Source: a virus
Direction: 5' to 3' (one strand)
IMG/VR virus record: IMGVR_UViG_3300042894_001737
Coordinates: 1-36,634 of that record
DNA length: 36,634 bases
The translations under genes and the position numbers were made by a program. The notes under the pieces are model-generated. The model searched no databases, was not told where the DNA came from, and was given only the letters and a program-made list of their open reading frames with translations. Every line of letters begins with the position of its first letter. The first letter of the stretch is position 1. Positions 5,205 through 36,408 of this stretch are shown here, one piece after another.

Positions 5205-5294
5205 CCCACTACGATATTGAGGCTGCAATCGCGGCCAGAAAGGTGGGGGAAATCAAACCTGGCTTCCGCAAAAACCACGACTCCGAGAAGGCGA

Positions 5295-5314
5295 GTCCCG
5301 AAATAAGTCCCGAA
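5295..5314 (+). repeat. Left integrase arm-type sites, GTCCCGAA pair
   Basis: Two direct copies of GTCCCGAA lie at 5295-5302 and 5307-5314, spaced 12 bp start to start. The same pair with the same spacing occurs right of the core. Paired direct repeats flanking a core are the hallmark of arm-type integrase binding sites. I infer that the N-terminal domain of the integrase binds here. Confidence 0.7.
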
Positions 5315-5351
5315 GCGCCTCGTAAATAACTGATATATATAGTTTGCCCCT

Positions 5352-5398
5352 AGCTTCCCAAGCTGAATACGAGGGTTCGATTCCCTTCACCCGCTCCA
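5352..5398 (+). other. attP core: 3' part of tRNA-Gly(CCC)
   Basis: The sequence matches the anticodon loop (TTCCCAA), variable loop, T-arm (GAGGG-TTCGATT-CCCTT), acceptor 3' strand CACCCGC, discriminator T and encoded CCA of a tRNA-Gly with CCC anticodon. The D-arm and 5' acceptor half are missing upstream, so this is not a complete tRNA gene. Phages that integrate in tRNA genes carry exactly this 3' segment, which restores the host gene after integration. Phage genes lie on both sides, so it is attP, not attL or attR. Confidence 0.85.
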
Positions 5399-5499
5399 AA
5401 ATCCCCCACTGCAAGCGTTTGAAATGTCTAAGGTTTTCTGCTGTTTTGCGCTATTTCAGCAATGCGGCGAAAACGGCAGGAAAGGCCAGAAACGGCCAC

Positions 5500-5542
5500 T
5501 TCGGGACATAATATCCCAAAGAGTCCCGAAGTAAGTCCCGAA
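5500..5542. repeat. Right integrase arm-type sites
   Basis: One inverted copy (TTCGGGAC, 5500-5507) is followed by two direct copies of GTCCCGAA (5523-5530 and 5535-5542), again 12 bp apart. Together with the left pair this gives five copies within 250 bp around the core. The inverted extra site makes the two arms asymmetric, as needed for directional control of recombination. Confidence 0.7.
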
Positions 5543-5652
5543 GCAGTTCCGGTGTTGTTCTTTCAAGCCATCCGCTCAATCGGGTCCAGCGCGCGCAGCA
5601 CCAGCCCGTCGGCCTTATGGAACGTCAACGACTGCAGCGCCCGCCTGCGCGC

Positions 5653-11236: not shown

Positions 11237-13818
11237 TATATAACCTCATCGGCGACAAGCCGCAGTTGTGAGACGACGGGCGTGAAGCTGGCGTCGTTTG
11301 ATGTGAGTATCGCGCGGGCTTGCACGCCCCAGGCCGAGGTTTCGGTATTCTCGACGCGGCCCCAGTCCGACCAGACGGGCGACCCGGCGGGGCTTGTCTG
11401 CGTCGTGCGGAATTCCACTTCGACGTCCACTTCGCCGCCGTCCACGCCGTCGAACGAAAGCCAGTCGTCGATGTTGCCGGTGCGGGTATCAATCTGGTCG
11501 AAGACATTGTCCGAAACCATGTCGATGACCGACCGCAGCCGCATTCGCTTCACAAGTCCGGCGTTGATGCCCGTTGCGAACGTGTAGGTGCCTGTCGGGA
11601 GTATCCCGCCTTCGAAGTCAATGTCGGCAACCGCGTCCACGTCGGCCCAGGTGTCAATCTGGCCGCTGCTGTCCAGCTTCAGCGTTGAGCCGACAAGGGT
11701 GACGCCCGACTTCGCGCCGGTAAAGGTTGCGTCTTCCTGCAGCGTGGCAATGCCGGTGTAGCCAATCGCCGTCGCGCCGCTGGTGGAGATGACGACGCTT
11801 GGCCCGTAGTTGTCGCCGCTGTCGCGGGCGCGCAGGACATATGCGCCGGGCTTAAGGGGAACGACGGCAATGGCCGTTGAGCCGGGAACTTCGTCCATGC
11901 TGACGGCATTGGCGAAGCTGGGCGAGGATGCCGCCGAATGCCGGATGATGATTGTGCCGCCATATCTGACGTCAAGATCCGGGTGCAGCGTCCATTTCAG
12001 GACTGCCAGCCCGCCCGCCGTCTGCAGCGTGAGGCCGGTAATTGCGGCAGGCAGCGCGCCCAGGCCAGACACCTCAAGCGCGCATGACGCGAAGGCCGAC
12101 GACACGCCGAGCCGCGAGATAGCCTTGACGCGGAATTCCCATTGCCCCGGCGTCCAGTCCAATAGCGTGAACGACAGGTTTTCCGTCCTGCCCTGGCGAA
12201 CCCAAGCGCCCCCGTTTACGCGGGCGTCGATGATATACTGGTCAACGTAAGGCGACGTCGAGCGCGGCCAAGTGAGGGCAACTTGCGTCTTCACCCCTGC
12301 CCCGTCGCGCGTCAGATAGAGGCTTTCGGCGGCGGTGGGGGAACCCGGTGGGGTGACTTTGAAGGCGTTCGGCAGCGTCGTGCGCGGGGCTGCGGCGTAT
12401 ATCTGGAATTCGCTTGAGGCCCAGTCATAGACCAGCGGCGAGGTTTCGCGCAGCGTCAACTGCGGCGCAATCACGGCCCCGGCCTCGCCGCTGCTGAGTT
12501 GCAGGTTCACGGCCGCGACGTCGAACGGCTTTGCTGAGAAGCCCCACCGCGCATAGTCCAGCGTCACGGTATCGCCGACCGTCGCCAGCCAGGCGCGCAG
12601 CTTGCCGTCGATTTGAACCGTCATTTGCCGGCGGTTGCGCTCAAGTTCAATCTTGGCGAGGCGCTGTGCCATTGATGCCGAAATCGTGAAGGGCAGCGTG
12701 ATGTCGCGCCAGACAACGTCACCGCCGTCTTCCGTGATGTAAGCCGCCGACTGATACGCCGGAAAATCGTCTGCTACCCAGTCGTTATCGGGCGAAACGA
12801 AAGTACCGCGTACAGCGTTGAAGTTCTGCGCCCGGCTGATGCGCGTGGCGACGGACAGGCCCGCCTCGGTGCAGTCGTCCGCCGTCAGGGCAAGCGTCGG
12901 CGTCCGGTAGGCTCCGGCATAGATGTGCCACTGCCCCGCCTGCCAGCCGCAGGTCCCGGCCATTGCCGTCAGCAGCCCTTCAATGACTTCTTGCGGCGCA
13001 ACGCTGGTGTCGATGAGGCCGTTGCAGGTATAGCGCCGCTCCGTGCCGCCGCCCACCTTGGCAACCGTTTCGTCGCAGACGTTCGCCGCCTCAATCAAAT
13101 CGGCTTCGTTTATCCCGTCGGCCGCCCCGATTTCAGCGCCCAGGCCGTAGATTGGGTCGGCCATGTAGTCCGCAAGGCACAGCGCCGGGTTGGTCTTATA
13201 GCTGCGCGAACCCGTGCGCGGGTCAAGGATGTCTTTCTTGCCTTTGACGTAGACGGATACGTTCGGGATTCCATTGGGATAGATGTCGGGATTGAAGCCG
13301 AAGTTGAGGAATATCGCCGCCCGGTTCTGCAGCTTGTGCGCGGTTGTCCAGAGTTCGGGGGACGCAGCCCGCAGCGAGGCAAACGCGCCGCCGGTTCCGG
13401 TGCCAGTGTGCTTTTCATAGGACAGCCAGCCGACGTATCGCCCAACCACGTTGCCGTCGAAGTCGATTGCCAGTTCGCCGTTCAGGTAGACCGAGCCAAT
13501 CATTTCGACCGGGTGCGCTGCGAGGGCGATGACCATGTCGAGCGCTTGGTCCGTGATGCCCCCAGCGTCGCGCGTGTTCAGGAAAACAATCGTGCCGCCG
13601 ACAACCGCTTCGCCGTAGATGATTTTGTGCGGCGCGATGGGCTGGCGCGACGTAACCGTGCGGCCCTTCATTGTCCCGGTATCGACGTTCTTCCGCGTCA
13701 GCGCTGCTGCTGCGGTGGACAGCAAAAGCGAAGCGCCGAGGTTGACGACGAAGCCGGCCAAGACGCTGGACGCGGCAAAGGTTGAAATCGCGGCGAACGC
13801 GGCGGCAAGAAACGGCAT
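11236..13818 (-). CDS. Tail tip / host-specificity protein J-like
   Basis: This 860-residue protein, the largest of the late operon, begins with a hydrophobic helix region (1-40). The conserved tip-protein start follows: a poly-Ala stretch and 'TSRQPIAPHKIIYGEAVVGG' (about 57-76), then 'TNPALCLADYM' and 'GLGAEIGAADGINEADL' typical of the central J/gpS-like hub. The C-terminal half (about 500-780) carries fibronectin-III-like repeats (PTAAESLYLTRDGAGVKTQV and 'VDQYIIDARVNGGAW'). It probably forms the central tail fibre that touches the receptor. Starts 1 bp upstream of the NlpC-like gene end. Confidence 0.85.
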   Translation of the reverse strand: MPFLAAAFAAISTFAASSVLAGFVVNLGASLLLSTAAAALTRKNVDTGTMKGRTVTSRQPIAPHKIIYGEAVVGGTIVFLNTRDAGGITDQALDMVIALAAHPVEMIGSVYLNGELAIDFDGNVVGRYVGWLSYEKHTGTGTGGAFASLRAASPELWTTAHKLQNRAAIFLNFGFNPDIYPNGIPNVSVYVKGKKDILDPRTGSRSYKTNPALCLADYMADPIYGLGAEIGAADGINEADLIEAANVCDETVAKVGGGTERRYTCNGLIDTSVAPQEVIEGLLTAMAGTCGWQAGQWHIYAGAYRTPTLALTADDCTEAGLSVATRISRAQNFNAVRGTFVSPDNDWVADDFPAYQSAAYITEDGGDVVWRDITLPFTISASMAQRLAKIELERNRRQMTVQIDGKLRAWLATVGDTVTLDYARWGFSAKPFDVAAVNLQLSSGEAGAVIAPQLTLRETSPLVYDWASSEFQIYAAAPRTTLPNAFKVTPPGSPTAAESLYLTRDGAGVKTQVALTWPRSTSPYVDQYIIDARVNGGAWVRQGRTENLSFTLLDWTPGQWEFRVKAISRLGVSSAFASCALEVSGLGALPAAITGLTLQTAGGLAVLKWTLHPDLDVRYGGTIIIRHSAASSPSFANAVSMDEVPGSTAIAVVPLKPGAYVLRARDSGDNYGPSVVISTSGATAIGYTGIATLQEDATFTGAKSGVTLVGSTLKLDSSGQIDTWADVDAVADIDFEGGILPTGTYTFATGINAGLVKRMRLRSVIDMVSDNVFDQIDTRTGNIDDWLSFDGVDGGEVDVEVEFRTTQTSPAGSPVWSDWGRVENTETSAWGVQARAILTSNDASFTPVVSQLRLVADEVI

Positions 13819-26165: not shown

Positions 26166-27206
26166 CTATCCCGCCGGGAACAGGTGCAGCTGGCCGTATG
26201 TCTTCGCGCCCTTGAGGCCATTGCACTTGCGGCAGGCGCATTGCGTGTTGGCGTAGGTGTGGTCGCCGCCGTCAGCCAGCGTCACGATGTGGTCCAACTC
26301 AGGCGCGCGCGGGTGCATCTTGCCGCGCTGTGTTCGCAACGTCAGCTTGCCGCAGATGCCGCAGCGCCAGCCGTCACGCTCAAAAACCTTGAGCGGGCTG
26401 ACGCGCTCTATCCTAGAAGAGCCCTTCTTTCTTGCCCTGCGCCTGGCTTTCGCCTGCTTCTGCATTTCTCTGTACCCAGGTTGCGTCCGGGCAAGAGCGT
26501 TCTTGCAAACCTTTGAGCAAAACTTAGTTGAACTAAACTGCTCTCCGCTCATGGCCACAAACTCAGTAGAGCAAGTGGCGCAGTTCCTAGTGGTTCCTTT
26601 GACGGGAATGTAGCTGCGGTGACTGCCCAGGCTAACGCAGCTGTTGCAACGTATAGCGCCAAACCTTCCCTCTTTGCGCTGGCCGCAACCTGCGCACCGC
26701 AACCGATAGACCGAGTGCAGAACCCGTAACCCGTTAGCCCTGGCTGGCCCCTCAATCTTCCGCCAATCCTGAAAGCACTCCCTAGAGCAAAAAGATTTTC
26801 GGTCCTTAACCTTAGGCCTGTATTCAACTCCACATGCCCTGCACCTACAAAGCGGGGTGGATTTGAGGGTGGCTTGGCGCAGCCGAGGTGGCAGACCCGC
26901 GCTGCCGTTAGCCGCCCTTTTTGCCAGATGGCGCCTTATCTGCTTGTGCTCTTCCATGCAGCCCCTGCACAGGGCTTTGATGGTCTTAGGACTGAGCGCC
27001 CCGCAACCTTCGCACAACGGTTTGGGCTTAAGCTTTTTCTGCAAGCGCTCGGGTTTAGCTTTTTTCTCAGGACGGGGCTGACGCGCAGTCTCGGCCCGCG
27101 CAGCTCTGCAACTATCGCAGCTAACGGGCGGGCGCCCGCGTTGGCCAGCACGTTGATGAATGAATTGCGCGCCGCACTCGCGGCATGGTATTCCGTCAAA
27201 AGCCAT
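26166..27206 (-). CDS. Multi-zinc-ribbon HNH endonuclease
   Basis: This 346-residue protein has five Cys-x2-Cys-type zinc modules in a row: C8/C11 with C30/C33, C65/C68 with C80/C83, C122/C125 with C140/C144, C171/C174 with C187/C190, and C209/C212 with C230/C234. A basic stretch (about 250-265) precedes a C-terminal HNH domain with C282/C285, D305-H306, N320 and C325/C328. The zinc array could set DNA specificity, as in homing endonucleases. It lies between the terminase small subunit and a second HNH gene, and has its own promoter with an overlapping palindrome. It may be a mobile 'moron' or aid packaging. Confidence 0.8.
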   Translation of the reverse strand: MAFDGIPCRECGAQFIHQRAGQRGRPPVSCDSCRAARAETARQPRPEKKAKPERLQKKLKPKPLCEGCGALSPKTIKALCRGCMEEHKQIRRHLAKRAANGSAGLPPRLRQATLKSTPLCRCRACGVEYRPKVKDRKSFCSRECFQDWRKIEGPARANGLRVLHSVYRLRCAGCGQRKEGRFGAIRCNSCVSLGSHRSYIPVKGTTRNCATCSTEFVAMSGEQFSSTKFCSKVCKNALARTQPGYREMQKQAKARRRARKKGSSRIERVSPLKVFERDGWRCGICGKLTLRTQRGKMHPRAPELDHIVTLADGGDHTYANTQCACRKCNGLKGAKTYGQLHLFPAG

Positions 27207-27623: not shown

Positions 27624-27649
27624 GCGGAACCTTATGGTTGAACGCGGAG

Positions 27650-27728
27650 GCCGACGGCGGGGGTCGAACCCGCGACACGAGGTCGGCTGGGAGGCACCGC
27701 CACTGTTCTGCCGCTGAACTACGCCGGC
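27650..27728 (-). tRNA. tRNA-like gene with atypical anticodon arm
   Basis: On the minus strand the acceptor GCCGGCG pairs with CGTCGGC (one G-U). TA spacer, D-arm GTTC-AGCGGCA-GAAC and T-arm GCGGG-TTCGACC-CCCGC are perfect. The part between D-arm and T-arm is 31 nt, not the usual 22-23. No standard 5-bp / 7-nt anticodon arm with T33 can be drawn. The best stem has an 11-nt loop GGTGCCTCCCA. The anticodon is therefore uncertain (Gly GCC or CCC are the nearest readings). No CCA is encoded. Either a degenerate, intron-like or unusual tRNA. Confidence 0.65.
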
Positions 27729-28734: not shown

Positions 28735-29015
28735 TCCGTGGACCCCGTCGCAATCTCACCCGCAAGCGCCGCGTAAGCTGCCGCGTCGATGGCGCTGTCG
28801 ATGTGGCCGGGGTTGCCCGCCATGCGCGCCAGCTTGAACAGCACCATCATGCAGGCGACGTCGTAGGCGTTGTATGGGCCGGGCTTGCGGACGCCGTCCC
28901 ACCACTCCCAAGCGCCGCCTATAGCTTGGAAGTTGGCTTCAGCGTCGCCATGAACGGCCGCGCGGTCCACGTTGACGTAGCCCTTCGCCGTGTCGAGGAT
29001 TTCGGAGCGCATCAT
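28731..29015 (-). CDS. DUF6378-like phage protein
   Basis: This 94-residue protein starts MMRSEILDTAKGYVNVDRA. The pattern 'HGDAEANFQAIGGAWEWW' followed by 'YDVACMMVLFKLARMAGNPG' and 'DSAIDAAAYAALAGE' is that of DUF6378, a widespread helical phage family of unknown role, somewhat like small MazG-fold proteins. I chose the ATG at 29015 for its ATGA overlap with the previous gene. Confidence 0.78.
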   Translation of the reverse strand: MMRSEILDTAKGYVNVDRAAVHGDAEANFQAIGGAWEWWDGVRKPGPYNAYDVACMMVLFKLARMAGNPGHIDSAIDAAAYAALAGEIATGSTE

Positions 29016-29647
29016 GGCTTCACCGCGACTGAATACGTTTTGACGTTTGACACCGGGCAGCGCACCCAGACGATCAGGTTCTGCGCCCGCAGCGCCCGAA
29101 GGCACGCTTCCATTGTCGTTGACCCGACTCTGAGCGCCCGCTGCATCGCGGCGCGTGTGGCGGGCTGTGCGGACAGCAGCGCGAACACCGCGTCAACCTT
29201 CTCAGCGCTTGCCCGGTGCTTCGAGCAGTCCGTGTCCCCGGCCACGGACGCCGGCGGCGGCACGCTGATTGCGCCGGCCCCCTCGGGAGTGATGCGATAT
29301 ATGACGGCCCCTTCGCGGAAGATGCGCTCGACCTGGCCCTTGTCGCGCATGTCGCGCAGGGCGCGGTCCATCGTGCGCTTTGGCTGGCGGGTGGCCTGGA
29401 ACAGCCCGGCGCGGCTATCTTCCGAATCCGCCAGATGACGCAGAATGGCGAGGCAATTGTTCGAATGCGTCGTGCGCGGAACTACGGGGGCGCGCGGCTC
29501 TCTTGGCTCACGCGGCAGTGGCGTCTCCTTCACCGGGGCGATGGCCTTGATCATCGCCCGCCGGATGTCGTCCTGGAAGTAAACCGCCCGCCAATCCTTG
29601 AAGGCGTTCTTGATCTCAAAGGGCGGGATCTCGGTCATCATGTTCAT
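29012..29647 (-). CDS. Tandem winged-helix DNA-binding protein
   Basis: This 211-residue protein starts MNMMTEIPPFEIKNAFKDW after GAGGCCCGCCCC. Two winged-helix units are visible: about 60-115 (CLAILRHLADSEDSRAGLF, then TMDRALRDMRDKGQVERIF) and about 150-208 (AVFALLSAQPATRAAMQRAL, then TMEACLRALRAQNLIVWVR). It is likely a phage transcription regulator. Next to it lie the candidate origin and the putative late regulator. Confidence 0.7.
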   Translation of the reverse strand: MNMMTEIPPFEIKNAFKDWRAVYFQDDIRRAMIKAIAPVKETPLPREPREPRAPVVPRTTHSNNCLAILRHLADSEDSRAGLFQATRQPKRTMDRALRDMRDKGQVERIFREGAVIYRITPEGAGAISVPPPASVAGDTDCSKHRASAEKVDAVFALLSAQPATRAAMQRALRVGSTTMEACLRALRAQNLIVWVRCPVSNVKTYSVAVKP

Positions 29648-29657
29648 GGGGCGGGCC

Positions 29658-30227
29658 TCACCAGATAATTTCGTCATCGAGGTCTTGCTCGATCTTCGTG
29701 CGGGGGCGGATGGCGGTGACTTCTGCGCCGGGGAAAAGCTGCTTCACCTCGGCCACCAGTCCGAAGGACATTGGGCGCAGCGCAACGACAGCCTCGCGCA
29801 GCGTGAAGATCACGGCGTCGGGATAGGCGTGCTTGGCGCGGACGGCGAAGGCCACGTCCTGAACGAAGCCGTACCGCTTGCCGTCGATCTCGGTGAGCCA
29901 GCAGGCGGGCGGCGATGGGATGCGCCCGGCGGCCCGCGCTTCGGCGTCCATCGCCTGCAAGCCCCGGATGCAGTTCTGCGCGGCGGCGGCTGTGGCGGCG
30001 GGGTCGCTGGCCCCGATGCAGGCGTTCAGGTGCGCGATGGCGCTGCCGTACCGTTCCGCCGTGGCGGGCGAGACAAGCGTGGGCAGCACGTCCACGCCCC
30101 ACACCGAGTCCATTTCTGTGGCGACGGTGTCGAGCGGGCCGACGGCATAGTCGCAGCGGATCTCTTCGGGGGTGGCGCCGCTGTAGGTGAGGCGGTCACC
30201 CTTCTTTTGGCGATGAGGGCGGGTCAT
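29658..30227 (-). CDS. Phage protein near the origin, unknown
   Basis: This 189-residue protein has a basic start (MTRPHRQKKGDRLTYSG), a long alanine-rich helix region (about 60-110), and a C-terminal alpha/beta part with 'WLTEIDGKRYGFVQDVAFAV'. No family recognised. It ends 11 bp before the winged-helix gene start and begins in an ATGA overlap with the small ORF that crosses the origin-like region. Confidence 0.65.
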   Translation of the reverse strand: MTRPHRQKKGDRLTYSGATPEEIRCDYAVGPLDTVATEMDSVWGVDVLPTLVSPATAERYGSAIAHLNACIGASDPAATAAAAQNCIRGLQAMDAEARAAGRIPSPPACWLTEIDGKRYGFVQDVAFAVRAKHAYPDAVIFTLREAVVALRPMSFGLVAEVKQLFPGAEVTAIRPRTKIEQDLDDEIIW

Positions 30228-30433
30228 GCGGGGACTCCGGTAGACACGGTAGACGACTTTCTTAGAGACTTTTGGGGAACCGCTAAGTGAGGTAGACGCG
30301 ACGCGGTAGACATCCCCACATCTGCCATCATCAAAGCGAAATAGCGTTTATTATCATATAGATAATCTATGTCTAAAAGATTCGTAAGAATACTGTCTAC
30401 CGTGTCTACCGCTATTTCACTTTTTCCGAACAT
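30224..30433 (-). CDS. Possible small ORF across the origin-like repeats
   Basis: This 69-residue ORF has a good GAGGGG ribosome site 8 nt before the ATG and an ATGA overlap with the following gene, both in favour. Against it, the frame runs through the GGTAGAC repeats, which translate to VDTVDS and SSTVSTG, and through the AT-rich core, so composition is dictated by the repeats. The same GAGGGGCAGAC leader occurs before the gene at 28480. Uncertain; translation may serve only coupling. Confidence 0.4.
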   Translation of the reverse strand: MFGKSEIAVDTVDSILTNLLDIDYLYDNKRYFALMMADVGMSTASRLPHLAVPQKSLRKSSTVSTGVPA

Positions 30434-30482
30434 GACGTCTGCCCCTCTAAAAACCGCATGATGTCTACCGACGATGTCTACC
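30239..30482. repeat. Inverted GGTAGAC iteron array, candidate replication origin
   Basis: Four copies of GGTAGAC (30239, 30248, 30291, 30305) are mirrored by four copies of GTCTACC (30395, 30404, 30463, 30476). The inner pairs form a perfect 17-bp inverted repeat: CGGTAGACACGGTAGAC at 30238-30254 against its complement at 30394-30410. Between the two sets lies an AT-rich core (about 30339-30393) in otherwise GC-rich DNA. Iterons next to an AT-rich unwinding segment and a primase-helicase gene 1.1 kb away fit a replication origin. It could instead be a regulatory array. Confidence 0.7.
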
Positions 30483-30485
30483 GCT

Positions 30486-31613
30486 CTACCTGAGCGTCAC
30501 TTGACGACTACGCAGCGCCCAGCAATTGACGTGCAGCCGCTCTCCGTTTGGCTCTGTGATTGAAACCATCCAGTCCGCGCGCCCACATTCGGCGCAAACA
30601 GACCCAGCGGCGCGCGCCGCCACCTCAGACCGAATGGACGACAGTTCAATATCTTGAGCGCGTCCCTTAGCCGCCAAAATGGCTATTCTCTTTCTTTCCT
30701 GTTCCCAGCGCTCCGCGTTTGTCGCAGCTATTTCTTTGCGCTCCGCATCGCGCTTCTCTTCCTCTGCGCGTTGATCTTTGATGATCTTTTCGCGCGCGTA
30801 TTTCTTCTCTGACATCTCCCATATGCTCGCTGCGTCCGAGGCATCTCTGAGATGGACTGGACTAGCGACTGCGGCGACTGGCGGGGGAACGGGGCATTGC
30901 GCATTGCTCGGATTGACCGTTGCCACGTCATACATGCGAGACTTTAGGCCATAAACATTTGTGATGATTTCTGCGTTTGTAATGACGCGAAATTTCTTTG
31001 ACCTCACAAAGTCCTTGCACGCCTCCGGGATATCAAAAGCTTCGCTGCGCCATAGCTTCTGCATGTAGCTCTGCTCAAGCCCTTCGATGTTGAGAATGCC
31101 GATTAGCCTTCCTGCGGCTGAGGCCGCCTCAAGTCTCTTGTCTGTCGGCTTGCTGGAATAGACAACTTCAAGCTCCAGTATCGGTGCTCTTTCGTTGTCT
31201 GCCGGTGATACTGTCAAATCCGGCCGCCACACTTCACCGCCATAATTCGCGTTCTTTTCTACGCTACAAAAGCCAGTGGGTAAGGCGCGCGTCCCTGCAT
31301 GGCTGCAAATATCCCTCGCCTTAGTGCGCCCATTCAGCATCTGCGCGGCGGCGTCCCGCACTGCGTTGTGCAGCGTATCTCGGTGCATTTGAGCAAGGGC
31401 ATCACAATCGCTCTTGCTGGAATGTCTAAAGTGCGCCGCAGCCCGGTCAGATTCTCTAATGAACGAAACGTTTCCCCGACACAGCGGGCATTCCAGCTCC
31501 TCGCATGTCGGTCGACCGTCTTTGATTTGCAAGATATCGCCGTCAGGCGTCATCGCGTAAGGAACGCGAAACTTGTCTGGGTTGACGTCATATGTCTCTA
31601 GAGCGGCGCTCAT
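30486..31613 (-). CDS. CoiA-like nuclease
   Basis: This 375-residue protein has a zinc-binding start (C42/C45 in 'ECPLCRGNVSF', H61/H64 in 'AAAHFRHSSKSDC', C70) followed by a PD-(D/E)xK-like nuclease core: 'WRPDLTVSP' (P131-D132) and 'PILELEVVYSSKPTDKR' (E147/E149, K155). This matches the CoiA family linked to DNA processing in competence. A charged coiled coil (about 268-325) leads to a second zinc site (CAEC near 340, H and C near 360). It lies between the primase and the origin-like array, so a recombination or replication role is plausible. Confidence 0.75.
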   Translation of the reverse strand: MSAALETYDVNPDKFRVPYAMTPDGDILQIKDGRPTCEELECPLCRGNVSFIRESDRAAAHFRHSSKSDCDALAQMHRDTLHNAVRDAAAQMLNGRTKARDICSHAGTRALPTGFCSVEKNANYGGEVWRPDLTVSPADNERAPILELEVVYSSKPTDKRLEAASAAGRLIGILNIEGLEQSYMQKLWRSEAFDIPEACKDFVRSKKFRVITNAEIITNVYGLKSRMYDVATVNPSNAQCPVPPPVAAVASPVHLRDASDAASIWEMSEKKYAREKIIKDQRAEEEKRDAERKEIAATNAERWEQERKRIAILAAKGRAQDIELSSIRSEVAARAAGSVCAECGRADWMVSITEPNGERLHVNCWALRSRQVTLR

Positions 31614-33868
31614 GGCGCCACCTTCGTAAACCGGGCGCGGCCCTTGTTTTCGCCGGCAGTAAATTTGCCCGATCTGGCAAATCCATTCTGCGCCAGGATG
31701 GCCGTGATCCTGTTGACTGTGACCCGATCAATCCGGCCCACATCTATCTTCAATGCTTCCTTCGCAATGTCGGTGGGGGACGCCTCTGATTTTCCAGCAA
31801 GATATTGCATTACATCGCCGTCCCATGCGTCCTGAGAGACGCGGGCAACTTGTTCATCCTGCGCAGTTCGCACAGCGTCGCCGGTGAGCCACCAAGGCTC
31901 CCCCGCATTAAAAGCATGCAGCGCCTCCGCCCAAAGCTGATCTCTGTCCCTAAGAAGTCCGTCCGTGTCGCACAGGTCGCCGACCTTGACCGGCCAGAAC
32001 CTCCGGTTGCCGGTTTCATCGCGCAGGTAGTCGCCCTTGTTGGTTGTCCCGGCGAACACGCATTGGCGAGCATATCTGATCTCGTTGCGGCCATAGGCGG
32101 GGCGGAAGCGCTCTTCCTCTCGGCTGATGAACGCCTTGACGATCTCAACTTCTGATTTGTTGATGTTCGACAGTTCGGCCATCTCAATGATCCACTTGCC
32201 GCGCAAGTAGTCCGAGGCGTCTTTCCCACTCATGGACGGCAGGCTGTCGCCAAACCAATCATCAGAAGCCAATACCCGCAGCGCCGTGGATTTCCGCGCG
32301 CCCTGCTTGCCCTCAAGGATGAGGACGCCATCCGCCTTGCAGCCGGGGCGCATAATCCGCGCCACCGCAGAAATCATCCATCGCCGCCCGACCTCTGAAA
32401 TATAGGCCAGAACGCTATCTTCAGGCGCGTCACATGCGCAGTAGTCAAAGAGCCAATGAGATATTCTCTCGACCTTGTCCCACGGCTCAAGAGATGCAAA
32501 GTAATCTCGGACTGGGTGAAATGCGTTAGTCTCGGCTATTGCGTCAATGCCGTCGAAAACGACTCCCTTTGAAGCGTCTGGGAATGCCGTCCTGTTGAAG
32601 TAGGCCACGACCTGAGTGACATCACTGTCCTTTATTGGCCGGGGGATGAAAAGATCGTTGCGCGCTCTGCTGCCTGGCAATGGCTTTGCGACAATCTTTG
32701 TCTGGGCAAACTCGTTGAATGAGAAGCGCCCCTGCAAAAACTCATCATGCATGAGAAGCATCATCACATTTGAGGTATTGAAGATTACTCTGCCGCGACT
32801 GTTGACGACGAGGCCTTCCTTCCAATCCGCCTTGCCGCTTTCGATGTCAGCATCGGTCGCAGCCGGCTTCTTCGGCCCTTCGTCCGCAGCGCCGGCTTCC
32901 GGCTTGCGCTTATGCTTGCGTGAGATGTTAGACAGGTTCGCGCCATTCTGCTGCGCATGATGGAATATGGCGCGGTAGCTGACGCCCTTCCCGGACTCAA
33001 AGCTGCGCCACTTAGCCTCTACCTCGGCTGGGTTGTAGCGGGGGTCTACGCTGGACCACGCCTTAGCCGCCTCCAGTCCGCGAAGCGACCCGTGGAAGAA
33101 GTCGTGGATCGCCATCAGGGCTTCCAACCAGCCGCTGCCGTAGTCCATCGATGCCGGAACGTAGGACAGGGCCTCAAGGAACTCAGGCTCGGACGCGCGG
33201 TCATCGCCGATTACAATTGTCGGCTTGTAGTCGCCGATATCAAAGATGCGGGCGCTTGGCGTCTCAACGCCAGCCCACTCGCGGATCTTCTTGTTGCACC
33301 AATCGCGGAAGTCCTGCGCCTCTGCTTGGGCAATCTCTGGAATGCTGTCGCGCGGCGTCTCCCAGAGCTCTCCGCGCGTCCAGCGGTACGGCTTCCCTGT
33401 GTCCGGGTGCGGCCCGTAGACGGCCATCTGGCGGGTTGTGGTGCGGACCTCGACCTGGGCGGTAAACAACTCGCCGTCGGGGCTGACCTTTTCGTGCTTT
33501 TCTGTGTTGTGGACCTTGAACCCCGGTTCTTCCAGCCGCAGCACGATAGCTGATTTCGGGTCTTTGCCGATCCGCTCCAAGGCACCGGGAAAGCGGCGCA
33601 TGGCCTCGGCCACGATCACCGCAGACAGCACCGGGTCGGTCACATCGATGTCAAAGCAGGCCAGATTGGTGTGCAGACAGCCGATCAGCCCAGCGTCGGC
33701 GAAATACGCCGCGCACTGGTCTGCGGTCAGCCGAAGCTTATCCCACCCGATAATCGACGGACCTTTTGAGCCGAGCGGAATGGGTACTGGGTAGTATCCA
33801 AGATTGCACAGCCGCGCGGCGCAGTCAGGGATGCTCGTCGGCTTTTCAAGTTTGATCTCAGGCACCAC
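31610..33868 (-). CDS. Prim-pol / VapE-type primase-helicase
   Basis: This 752-residue protein should prime and unwind phage DNA. The N-terminal prim-pol-like domain has 'GWDKLRLTADQCAAYFADAG' and D73-x-D75 in 'CFDIDVTD'. The C-terminal VapE/VirE-type helicase has Walker A 'EGKQGARKST' (519-528) and Walker B-like 'KWIIEMAEL' (558-566), followed by 'GNRRFWPVKVG'. The start is a GTG (33868) with GGGG at 7-10 nt before. It overlaps the CoiA-like gene start (ATGA). Confidence 0.88.
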   Translation of the reverse strand: MVPEIKLEKPTSIPDCAARLCNLGYYPVPIPLGSKGPSIIGWDKLRLTADQCAAYFADAGLIGCLHTNLACFDIDVTDPVLSAVIVAEAMRRFPGALERIGKDPKSAIVLRLEEPGFKVHNTEKHEKVSPDGELFTAQVEVRTTTRQMAVYGPHPDTGKPYRWTRGELWETPRDSIPEIAQAEAQDFRDWCNKKIREWAGVETPSARIFDIGDYKPTIVIGDDRASEPEFLEALSYVPASMDYGSGWLEALMAIHDFFHGSLRGLEAAKAWSSVDPRYNPAEVEAKWRSFESGKGVSYRAIFHHAQQNGANLSNISRKHKRKPEAGAADEGPKKPAATDADIESGKADWKEGLVVNSRGRVIFNTSNVMMLLMHDEFLQGRFSFNEFAQTKIVAKPLPGSRARNDLFIPRPIKDSDVTQVVAYFNRTAFPDASKGVVFDGIDAIAETNAFHPVRDYFASLEPWDKVERISHWLFDYCACDAPEDSVLAYISEVGRRWMISAVARIMRPGCKADGVLILEGKQGARKSTALRVLASDDWFGDSLPSMSGKDASDYLRGKWIIEMAELSNINKSEVEIVKAFISREEERFRPAYGRNEIRYARQCVFAGTTNKGDYLRDETGNRRFWPVKVGDLCDTDGLLRDRDQLWAEALHAFNAGEPWWLTGDAVRTAQDEQVARVSQDAWDGDVMQYLAGKSEASPTDIAKEALKIDVGRIDRVTVNRITAILAQNGFARSGKFTAGENKGRARFTKVAP

Positions 33869-34686: not shown

Positions 34687-34989
34687 TCAGCGCAGAACCG
34701 TCGTCAGTTCGGCGTATTCGGTCAGAATCTCATCGACGCTGGCGGGCGAGGTGCGGGCCAGTTCGGCGATCAGCGGCATCAGCGCCATCAGGTGCCGGCG
34801 CACGGTGTCGAGGCGCTTGGGCGTGTGCAGATCACCCATCACCGCCAGGGCAATGGCCCCGTCGATCTGCGCCTGCGTGGCGTCTTCGGGCAGGCTGTCC
34901 ACGGCGATGGCGCGGATTTCGCCGCAGCGATCGATCTGAAGCGGGTTCCAAGCGCGCTGCGGCGTGCCGGTGTCGATAGCGAAGGTCAT
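34687..34989 (-). CDS. Small phage protein, unknown
   Basis: This 100-residue protein has a strand start (MTFAIDTGTPQRAWNPLQ) and two to three helices ('LPEDATQAQIDGAIALAV', 'TVRRHLMALMPLIAELAR'). It starts in an ATGA overlap with the RusA-like gene. No family known to me; its place suggests a replication accessory. Confidence 0.65.
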   Translation of the reverse strand: MTFAIDTGTPQRAWNPLQIDRCGEIRAIAVDSLPEDATQAQIDGAIALAVMGDLHTPKRLDTVRRHLMALMPLIAELARTSPASVDEILTEYAELTTVLR

Positions 34990-35333
34990 GTTGCACTCTC
35001 AATCTGGATATGGACGGCACCGTGCTTGACCGGATCGCCGCGCTTGATCGTCAGGGACCACTTGCTGTCATCGACGCCGACCACGTCCGAGACGCCGTCG
35101 AGACCGGCCTTCATGCGGGCCAGCAGGTTGTCGAGATCGAAGCGGCGCCGCGTTGGCGGGCTGAAGGTCAGCGTCAGGTGCAGGCTGTCCGCGGCCACCG
35201 GCTTGAGGCCCTGCGCCTTGCATTCCCACTGGCAGGCCGCCCGATAGGACGCCTTGGCCTTGGCAAGCTGCATGAAGTGCAAGCGCCCGTTGGGGCTGAG
35301 TTCCTTCGGCGGCCAAGACAGCGTGACGTTCAC
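34986..35333 (-). CDS. RusA-like Holliday junction resolvase
   Basis: This 115-residue nuclease cuts four-way DNA junctions so that DNA can be packaged. It shows 'LSWPPKELSPNGRLHF' (5-20), a helix rich in basic residues, and 'RRRFDLDNLLARMKAGLDG' (62-80) with D66, D68, K75, D79. 'VGVDDSKW' (85-92) adds D88/D89. These acidic residues are the RusA metal-binding set. ATGA overlaps on both sides. Confidence 0.85.
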   Translation of the reverse strand: MNVTLSWPPKELSPNGRLHFMQLAKAKASYRAACQWECKAQGLKPVAADSLHLTLTFSPPTRRRFDLDNLLARMKAGLDGVSDVVGVDDSKWSLTIKRGDPVKHGAVHIQIESAT

Positions 35334-35796: not shown

Positions 35797-36002
35797 GCCT
35801 GCGCCCCGTCGTTGCTGCGTTCGGCCATGAAAGACCGAAGGGCGTTGACCGTATCCGGCCAGACCTTGCCGCCGCAGCGCAGGCGCTTGACCAGTTCGCT
35901 GTTGGAAACGGCGACCTTGCCGAAGTAGCTTTCGCCCATGCCAGTGCGGCCAAGGAAGGCTTCGATTTCGGCCAGAAGTTCGGGGTGTTTGATTTCGCTC
36001 AT
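35793..36002 (-). CDS. Cro-like small HTH regulator
   Basis: This 69-residue protein is divergent from the repressor and the first gene of the leftward operon. The sequence 'ELLAEIEAFLGRTGMGESYF' with 'GKVAVSNSELVKRLRCGGKV' reads as a small DNA-binding helix bundle. Its promoter (TTGACG 36037-36032, TACAGT 36015-36010, 16-bp spacer) puts transcription start at about 36003, next to the ATG, so the mRNA may be leaderless. An operator covers the promoter spacer. Confidence 0.7.
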   Translation of the reverse strand: MSEIKHPELLAEIEAFLGRTGMGESYFGKVAVSNSELVKRLRCGGKVWPDTVNALRSFMAERSNDGAQA

Positions 36003-36009
36003 GCCGCCA

Positions 36010-36037
36010 ACTGTATCCGCAATCGCGGATACGTCAA
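36010..36037 (-). promoter_or_regulatory. Leftward early promoter (Cro side)
   Basis: On the minus strand TTGACG (36037-36032), 16 bp, TACAGT (36015-36010). The operator at 36014-36031 fills the spacer, the same design as the rightward promoter at 229-256. Transcription would start almost at the ATG of the Cro-like gene. Confidence 0.7.
36014..36031. promoter_or_regulatory. Repressor operator O3
   Basis: TATCCGC-AATC-GCGGATA is a perfect 7-bp inverted repeat (8 bp with the flanking G and C). It is the best match to the shared 18-bp pattern and covers the spacer of the leftward promoter. Confidence 0.8.
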
Positions 36038-36064
36038 GCGTCGTTTATTGGGGACGTGCAAAAT

Positions 36065-36082
36065 CGTCCGCTATTTCGGATA
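36065..36082. promoter_or_regulatory. Repressor operator O4
   Basis: CGTCCGC-TATT-TCGGATA is a weaker copy of the operator pattern, 51 bp from the strong site and 9 bp before the repressor start. Binding here would regulate the repressor's own promoter, giving autoregulation. Confidence 0.65.
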
Positions 36083-36090
36083 AATCATAC

Positions 36091-36408
36091 ATGGAAAAGC
36101 TATCGACCGATAAATTGTGGTTGGACCGCCTGATGGCGGAAATAGAGCGCAAGGGCATGACCCAGCGCAGCGTGTCGCTGAAAGCTGGCCTCGGTGCGGG
36201 GTATGTGAACTCGCTTGTCAAGGAGGGGAAAGACCCAGCCCTGGACCATGTGATGCGAATTTGCGCAGCCCTAGATGTCAGCGCCGCTTACGTCCTGTTC
36301 GGCTTCAACGTGACGCCAGAGACGGAACGCATCATGCGCGCCGTGGAGGATAGCCCGGAGCGGCGCGCGGCGCTTGTTGCCCTGCTGGGGCTGTCGCGCG
36401 AGTCGTAG
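36091..36408 (+). CDS. XRE-family phage repressor (short, no cleavage domain)
   Basis: This 105-residue protein has an N-terminal helix-turn-helix (about 8-66): 'LMAEIERKGMTQRSVSLKAG', then 'LGAGYVNSLVKEGKDPALDH' and 'VMRICAALDVSAAYVLFG'. A short helical tail follows. It lacks the S24 self-cleavage domain of LexA-controlled repressors, so induction must work another way. No ribosome site precedes the ATG, so the message may be leaderless, like lambda cI from its maintenance promoter. Divergent from the Cro-like gene across two operators. A small gene overlaps its 3' end in antisense. Confidence 0.85.
   Translation: MEKLSTDKLWLDRLMAEIERKGMTQRSVSLKAGLGAGYVNSLVKEGKDPALDHVMRICAALDVSAAYVLFGFNVTPETERIMRAVEDSPERRAALVALLGLSRES

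Follow-up and report, generated by a model that had tools for sequence, protein, structure and literature searches.

Gene content of the phage and its intergenic repeats

The DNA analysed here (the window) is the whole of record IMGVR_UViG_3300042894_001737, 36,634 bp long, and carries the gene set of a temperate tailed phage, including genes for terminase, portal, head protease, major capsid, tape measure, tail fibre, endolysin and integrase. The closest terminase, that of Paracoccus phage Shpa, is 76% identical, and the host is therefore probably a relative of Paracoccus. Shpa itself has no GGTAGAC cluster, and its replication genes differ from those of the phage. The phage also carries a tRNA-Arg with anticodon CCT (27649-27728). 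Close to the integrase gene, at 5293-5544, two near-identical 24-bp repeats, GAGTCCCGAA(A/G)TAAGTCCCGAAGC, together with an inverted copy, flank a stretch resembling the 3' end of a tRNA (5365-5400), an arrangement suggestive of an attP core and its arm sites.

A primase-helicase gene lies upstream of the repeat array described below, in the same gene run, with 1.13 kb from its stop codon to the array and one ORF between them (Table 1). The sequence-only reading of this DNA had placed a primase-helicase, a resolvase and a CoiA-like nuclease upstream of the repeats, and profile matches bear out the first (VapE and PriCT_2) and the second (RusA-like). The third exists as an ORF, but its family assignment is weak, as the CoiA_N match (E = 0.0024, 17.8 bits) falls below the cut-off of 26.3.

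A gene-free gap of 258 bp (30228-30485) between two leftward ORFs holds eight exact copies of GGTAGAC, four on the plus strand (starts at 30239, 30248, 30291 and 30305) and four on the minus strand (30395, 30404, 30463 and 30476), on either side of an AT-rich core, in the number and order first reported. Only one other copy is present in the record, at 13485. The total of nine compares with a mean of 1.35 and a maximum of 5 in shuffles of the record, while no 7-mer exceeded three copies in 1000 dinucleotide shuffles of the gap; the repeats are thus far beyond chance. The core includes the lowest-GC stretches of 40 bp and of 60 bp in the entire record, as well as a hairpin, ATTATC-ATATA-GATAAT, at 30350-30366. 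We also observed a second inverted repeat, which has a different centre and overlaps both the core and the right-hand 9-bp pair.

Table 1. Features of the repeat array and of the neighbouring genes (positions in the window)
Feature	Position	Strand	Remarks
Separate winged-helix protein	29012-29677		DNA-binding family
Uncharacterised ORF, 189 aa, downstream of array	29658-30227	-	
Iteron pair 1-2 (CGGTAGACA CGGTAGACG), 9-bp pitch	30238-30255	+	left arm of 17-bp inverted repeat
Iteron pair 3-4, 14-bp pitch	30291-30312	+	
AT-rich core, candidate melting element	30312-30394		32.5% GC; genome about 62%
Second inverted repeat, AAAGCGAAATAGCG (30333-30346) / CGCTATTTCACTTT (30410-30423)	30333-30423		13 of 14 bases matching
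Iteron pair 5-6, 9-bp pitch	30394-30411	-	right arm of 17-bp inverted repeat
Iteron pair 7-8, 13-bp pitch	30462-30483	-	
CoiA-like ORF, 375 aa, between helicase and array	30486-31613	-	weak family match only
Predicted C-terminal winged-helix domain of primase-helicase (residues 681-752), proposed iteron-binding domain	31613-31828	-	model
Primase-helicase, 752 aa, PriCT_2 + VapE/SF3 helicase, proposed initiator	31610-33868	-	profile matches, model
RusA-like Holliday junction resolvase	34986-35333	-	phrog_34, E = 2.2e-22
Cro/CI-type repressor	35938-36408		DNA-binding family

Symmetry of the array

The start-to-start spacings of the iterons are, in order, 9, 43, 14, 90, 9, 59 and 13 bp. A perfect 17-bp inverted repeat, as claimed in the sequence-only reading, is real (30238-30254 and 30395-30411), but it joins the outer pair on the left with the inner pair on the right. 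The same reading had the pairs nearest to the core both spaced by 9 bp and the outer pairs by 14 and 13 bp; this holds on the right, whereas the left side has the 9-bp pair outside and the 14-bp pair inside. Even the best mirror centre pairs no more than two sites out of four to within 1 bp, a score also reached by 76% of random 4+4 layouts, so mirror symmetry of the array, and with it the notion of a two-fold order beyond that of ordinary iterons, is rejected. The only ordered trait is the split of orientations (++++ followed by ----), expected by chance in about 1 of 128 cases. Relatives that share the GGTAGAC iteron show other orders, such as --+-++ or ----+-, and two-fold symmetry is therefore not a conserved property. 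A bidirectional origin or a looped complex, which had been proposed from the symmetry, is accordingly unsupported. GC skew, suggested earlier as a check, shows no interpretable flip at 30.2-30.5 kb and hence no switch attributable to the array; the cumulative minimum near 33-34 kb is weak and confounded by the one-directional genes.

Repeat arrays beside other primase-helicase genes

Scans of viral contigs with GGTAGACNNGGTAGAC, and of both genome and viral contigs with a pattern of three copies, recovered at least about two dozen clusters that are non-coding, mix orientations and hold five or more GGTAGAC copies, although many of the contigs repeat one enterobacterial element almost unchanged. 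Where representatives were examined, a primase-helicase gene ends within about 165 bp, and usually within 50 bp, of the array. These genes belong to several unrelated families: VapE (L057 and L084), D5_N/DUF5906 primase-helicases (L019 and L040), P4-alpha-like genes with Zn-ribbon and Toprim domains (L047, L077 and, with four copies, L078), a DUF927/PriCT_2 gene in Selenomonadaceae (L146), and PrimPol-DUF5906 genes (Methylobacterium soli, L154, and L240). Searches of titles and abstracts for GGTAGAC, and for GTCTACC together with primase, found nothing relevant. Same-strand runs of the motif, often inside long ORFs (L140-L143 and L171), were not counted as origins, and neither were the clusters of ambiguous nature in L150, L152, L162, L164 and L168. 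One further cluster (L137, 7570-7763) lies just past a Toprim_3 ORF, yet inside another ORF.

The primase gene and array of L040, used together as a query, match 555 of 5,426 complete E. coli genomes, with at least 80% of the query covered in 397. In the element of strain Nissle (L181), read directly, the 300 bp that follow the primase gene hold five GGTAGAC copies. The element of strain IHE3034 is 82% identical over 99% of the query, a likeness that refers to the query match and not to a copy-by-copy reading of its array; according to PMC6092414, this is the strain whose element is studied as a PICI.

We also surveyed 34 VapE loci, comprising phage records, genomes, two viral contigs and the window, for arrays of at least five exact copies of one 7-mer, in both orientations and within 350 bp, inside the 1.6 kb 3' of the gene. 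Such an array is present at 15 of the 34 loci (14 of 33 without the window), against none of 34 in the 1.6 kb before the stop codon and 1 of 680 in shuffles. By this strict exact-match test the other 19 loci have no array, and the link between array and helicase is therefore common but not universal. The repeat units differ between loci (for instance GGGTGAC, TGTTGCATCA, GGTTGGAAC and GGTAGGAAC), and several of them fit a loose GGT..AC pattern. Two of the arrays (L212 and L224) also lie about 0.9-1.1 kb from the VapE gene. Among the densest arrays seen is that of a gammaproteobacterial locus (L223), where 12 mixed-orientation copies of GTTCCTA, with GGTAGGAAC as the extended unit, occur 21-284 bp past the VapE stop codon.

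Helicases 78-98% identical to that of L084 keep the array at the same place while its iteron core changes, being GTCTAC in L084 and L175, GTATAC in L177, GTAAC in L178 and GTCAAC in L179. The arrays of this family contain 9 copies of GTCTAC, 9 of GTATAC, 7 of GTAACC and 11 of GTCAAC, respectively, and no cross copies within the first 260 bp. Such a switch of the central bases throughout a whole array would be expected if a neighbouring gene encoded a trans-acting reader. In L177, L178 and L179 the C-terminal block of the helicase ranks with the more divergent parts, though others diverge too, and the L084 family alone therefore does not prove which domain is the reader. Beyond the GTATAC array of L177, about 300 bp past the VapE stop codon, there is a tandem AAAGTAGACAAAGTAGACAAG, which could be left over from an earlier iteron. 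For the phage itself, no diverged close relative was found, and concerted change was observed in the L084 family. The closest helicases found in viral contigs (L003-L011, about 40% identical) are accompanied within 3 kb by short direct repeats but by no such array.

Proposed origin and initiator, and alternative readings

Taken together, these comparisons argue that the array is the replication origin of the phage, of the iteron type and opened by the phage's own VapE/SF3 primase-helicase, a reading to which we assign a probability of roughly 0.83. A candidate origin had already been suggested in the sequence-only reading, and it is this part, rather than the emphasis on two-fold symmetry, that the comparisons strongly support. 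As in origins linked to SF3 primase-helicases, iterons are arranged in two sets around an AT-rich stretch, the cognate helicase is encoded on the same element with the array on its 3' side, and the initiator has a predicted C-terminal winged helix.

Pfam finds PriCT_2 and VapE in the primase-helicase, plus DUF5906 below threshold and nothing else; the Toprim and Zn-ribbon primase domains, traits of P4 alpha, are without a match. Its sole PDB relative by sequence is 7pds, the helicase PriRep1 with double-stranded DNA, which we take to come from a SaPI. In the AlphaFold model, confidence is high from about residue 340 onwards and very low for residues 1-333; the best structural match is again 7pds, with a Z score of 32.2 over 390 residues (347-752). 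Modelled alone, the last 72 residues form a winged helix (mean pLDDT 81), whose fold matches, all of them weak, include 7pds (Z 5.8) and many winged-helix proteins; the P4 origin-binding domain 1ka8 is not among the matches listed for this very small fold. Because the pairing of helicase and array recurs, the likely binder of the iterons is this C-terminal winged helix, and not the CoiA-like protein or the separate winged-helix protein.

The primase-helicase would probably bind the GGTAGACA iterons through its C-terminal winged helix, assemble as one or more rings on the two iteron sets and melt the AT-rich core between them, after which it would unwind the DNA and prime synthesis for the host replisome. 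This scheme follows that put forward for P4 alpha, SaPI Rep and the Pri-Rep of gram-negative PICIs, and it is by analogy with SaPI Rep and SCCmec Cch2 that we infer helicase binding, core melting and actual replication in this phage.

An array of operators for the Cro/CI-type repressor or the separate winged-helix protein, controlling the leftward genes, seems very improbable. Both regulators belong to DNA-binding families, the gap is upstream of the leftward ORF at 29658-30227, and the core has one weak promoter-like site on the minus strand; however, that match is at chance level (1 found, 0.7 expected). Further iteron clusters are absent both near the repressor and elsewhere in the record, where matches to CGGTAGACA within one mismatch are isolated and occur only at 13713, 18894, 31196 and 33460. 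Moreover, elements that differ in gene content have arrays of this motif after their primase-helicase genes.

An origin of the iteron type has a close counterpart in gram-negative PICIs. According to PMC6092414, two iteron sets flank an AT-rich region 3' of the initiator gene in these elements, a layout called unique to PICIs there, and the rep-ori of EcCICFT073, an E. coli PICI, supports plasmid replication. The likeness to those origins refers to the described layout, as the iteron letters are given there only in a figure; the E. coli PICI-type elements in our own scans (Nissle and L040) have an iteron identical to that of the phage. The phage is nevertheless not a satellite lacking a full virion gene set, since it has its own terminase, portal, protease, major capsid, tape measure and tail fibre. 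It also differs from gram-negative PICIs in its initiator (VapE/PriCT_2 instead of D5_N/DUF5906), in the gene between initiator and array, and in having all four plus-strand sites on one side and all four minus-strand sites on the other. The intervening CoiA-like gene sets the phage apart from most relatives; it counts against the origin reading, as do the VapE loci that have no array, the array-less closest helicases and the GC skew with its lack of a clear signal.

SaPI Rep and PriRep1 are VapE-family helicases like that of the phage; the SaPI origin follows rep immediately, and its iterons are recognised by the C-terminal domain (PMC7581432). SaPIs differ in being satellites and in having gram-positive hosts, and the likeness concerns helicase family, fold and origin position, not iteron sequence. 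In SCCmec, the helicase Cch2 uses its C-terminal domain to bind short direct repeats located immediately 3' of its operon (PMC7581432), but the iterons there are AAGTG, the helicase is different and the polymerase-primase is separate. In phage BIP-1 a stem-loop, and not iterons, has been proposed as the origin (PMC4234260). We found that the related Bordetella phage BPP-1 (L243) has two tandem AAACGAGGC pairs, inverted around an AT-rich palindrome, at about 26607-26711, which may represent a minimal iteron layout; they lie 0.47 kb 3' of the primase gene, whereas the stem-loop proposed in BIP-1 is nearer to the gene.

The comparison with P4 bears on a second alternative, namely that the array consists of partition, incompatibility or replication-control sites, like the second cis element (crr) of P4, and is not the start site. 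The crr lies directly 3' of alpha and is annotated with 'ori type 1 repeats' reading GGTGAACA, an 8-bp iteron that shares 6 of 8 bases with GGTAGACA and has the same 9-bp pair pitch. Both arrays are 3' of a primase-helicase gene; P4 alpha has a C-terminal origin-binding domain of solved structure (1ka8) where the phage protein has its predicted winged helix, but P4 alpha is a Toprim primase (PMC4234260). Since the type 1 repeats occur in crr as well as in the annotated origin about 5 kb away, an array lying 3' of the gene is no less like crr than like ori. However, P4 has two cis regions and the phage a single cluster, which contains the lowest-GC 60 bp of the record, and the 3' array of gram-negative PICIs is described as the origin in PMC6092414. 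We therefore consider a control site very improbable. A packaging (pac/cos) or recombination site, or a functionless chance cluster, can be dismissed almost entirely: repeat clusters at such sites are known from phage genomes, but the terminase genes are 4-6 kb from the array, the attachment-like repeats are elsewhere, beside the integrase, chance is excluded by the shuffles, and the motif recurs in satellites and genomes.

The array is thus best read as the phage origin, and it would be a satellite-type origin, of the kind known from P4, SaPIs and gram-negative PICIs, inside a full phage. More tentatively, GGTAGACA might be a word in an origin code of roughly the form GGT-NN(N)-AC-A, which many SF3 primase-helicases would share and read with their C-terminal winged helix, the word being switched in concert with changes of the helicase C-terminus; this generalisation is possible but doubtful. 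If it were true, origins would be interchangeable or mutually interfering across phages, PICIs, P4-like satellites and integrated elements of different phyla.

A layout known from satellites, with the iteron of E. coli PICI-type elements, is now seen in a tailed phage that is complete, and many other phages have related layouts after their VapE genes. This suggests a simple rule, usable for unannotated phages and satellites, that an array 3' of a primase-helicase gene is a candidate origin. Two questions become testable as well: on what basis an iteron is chosen by the C-terminal part of the helicase, and whether a common iteron leads phages and satellites to compete for, or to trigger, one another's origins.
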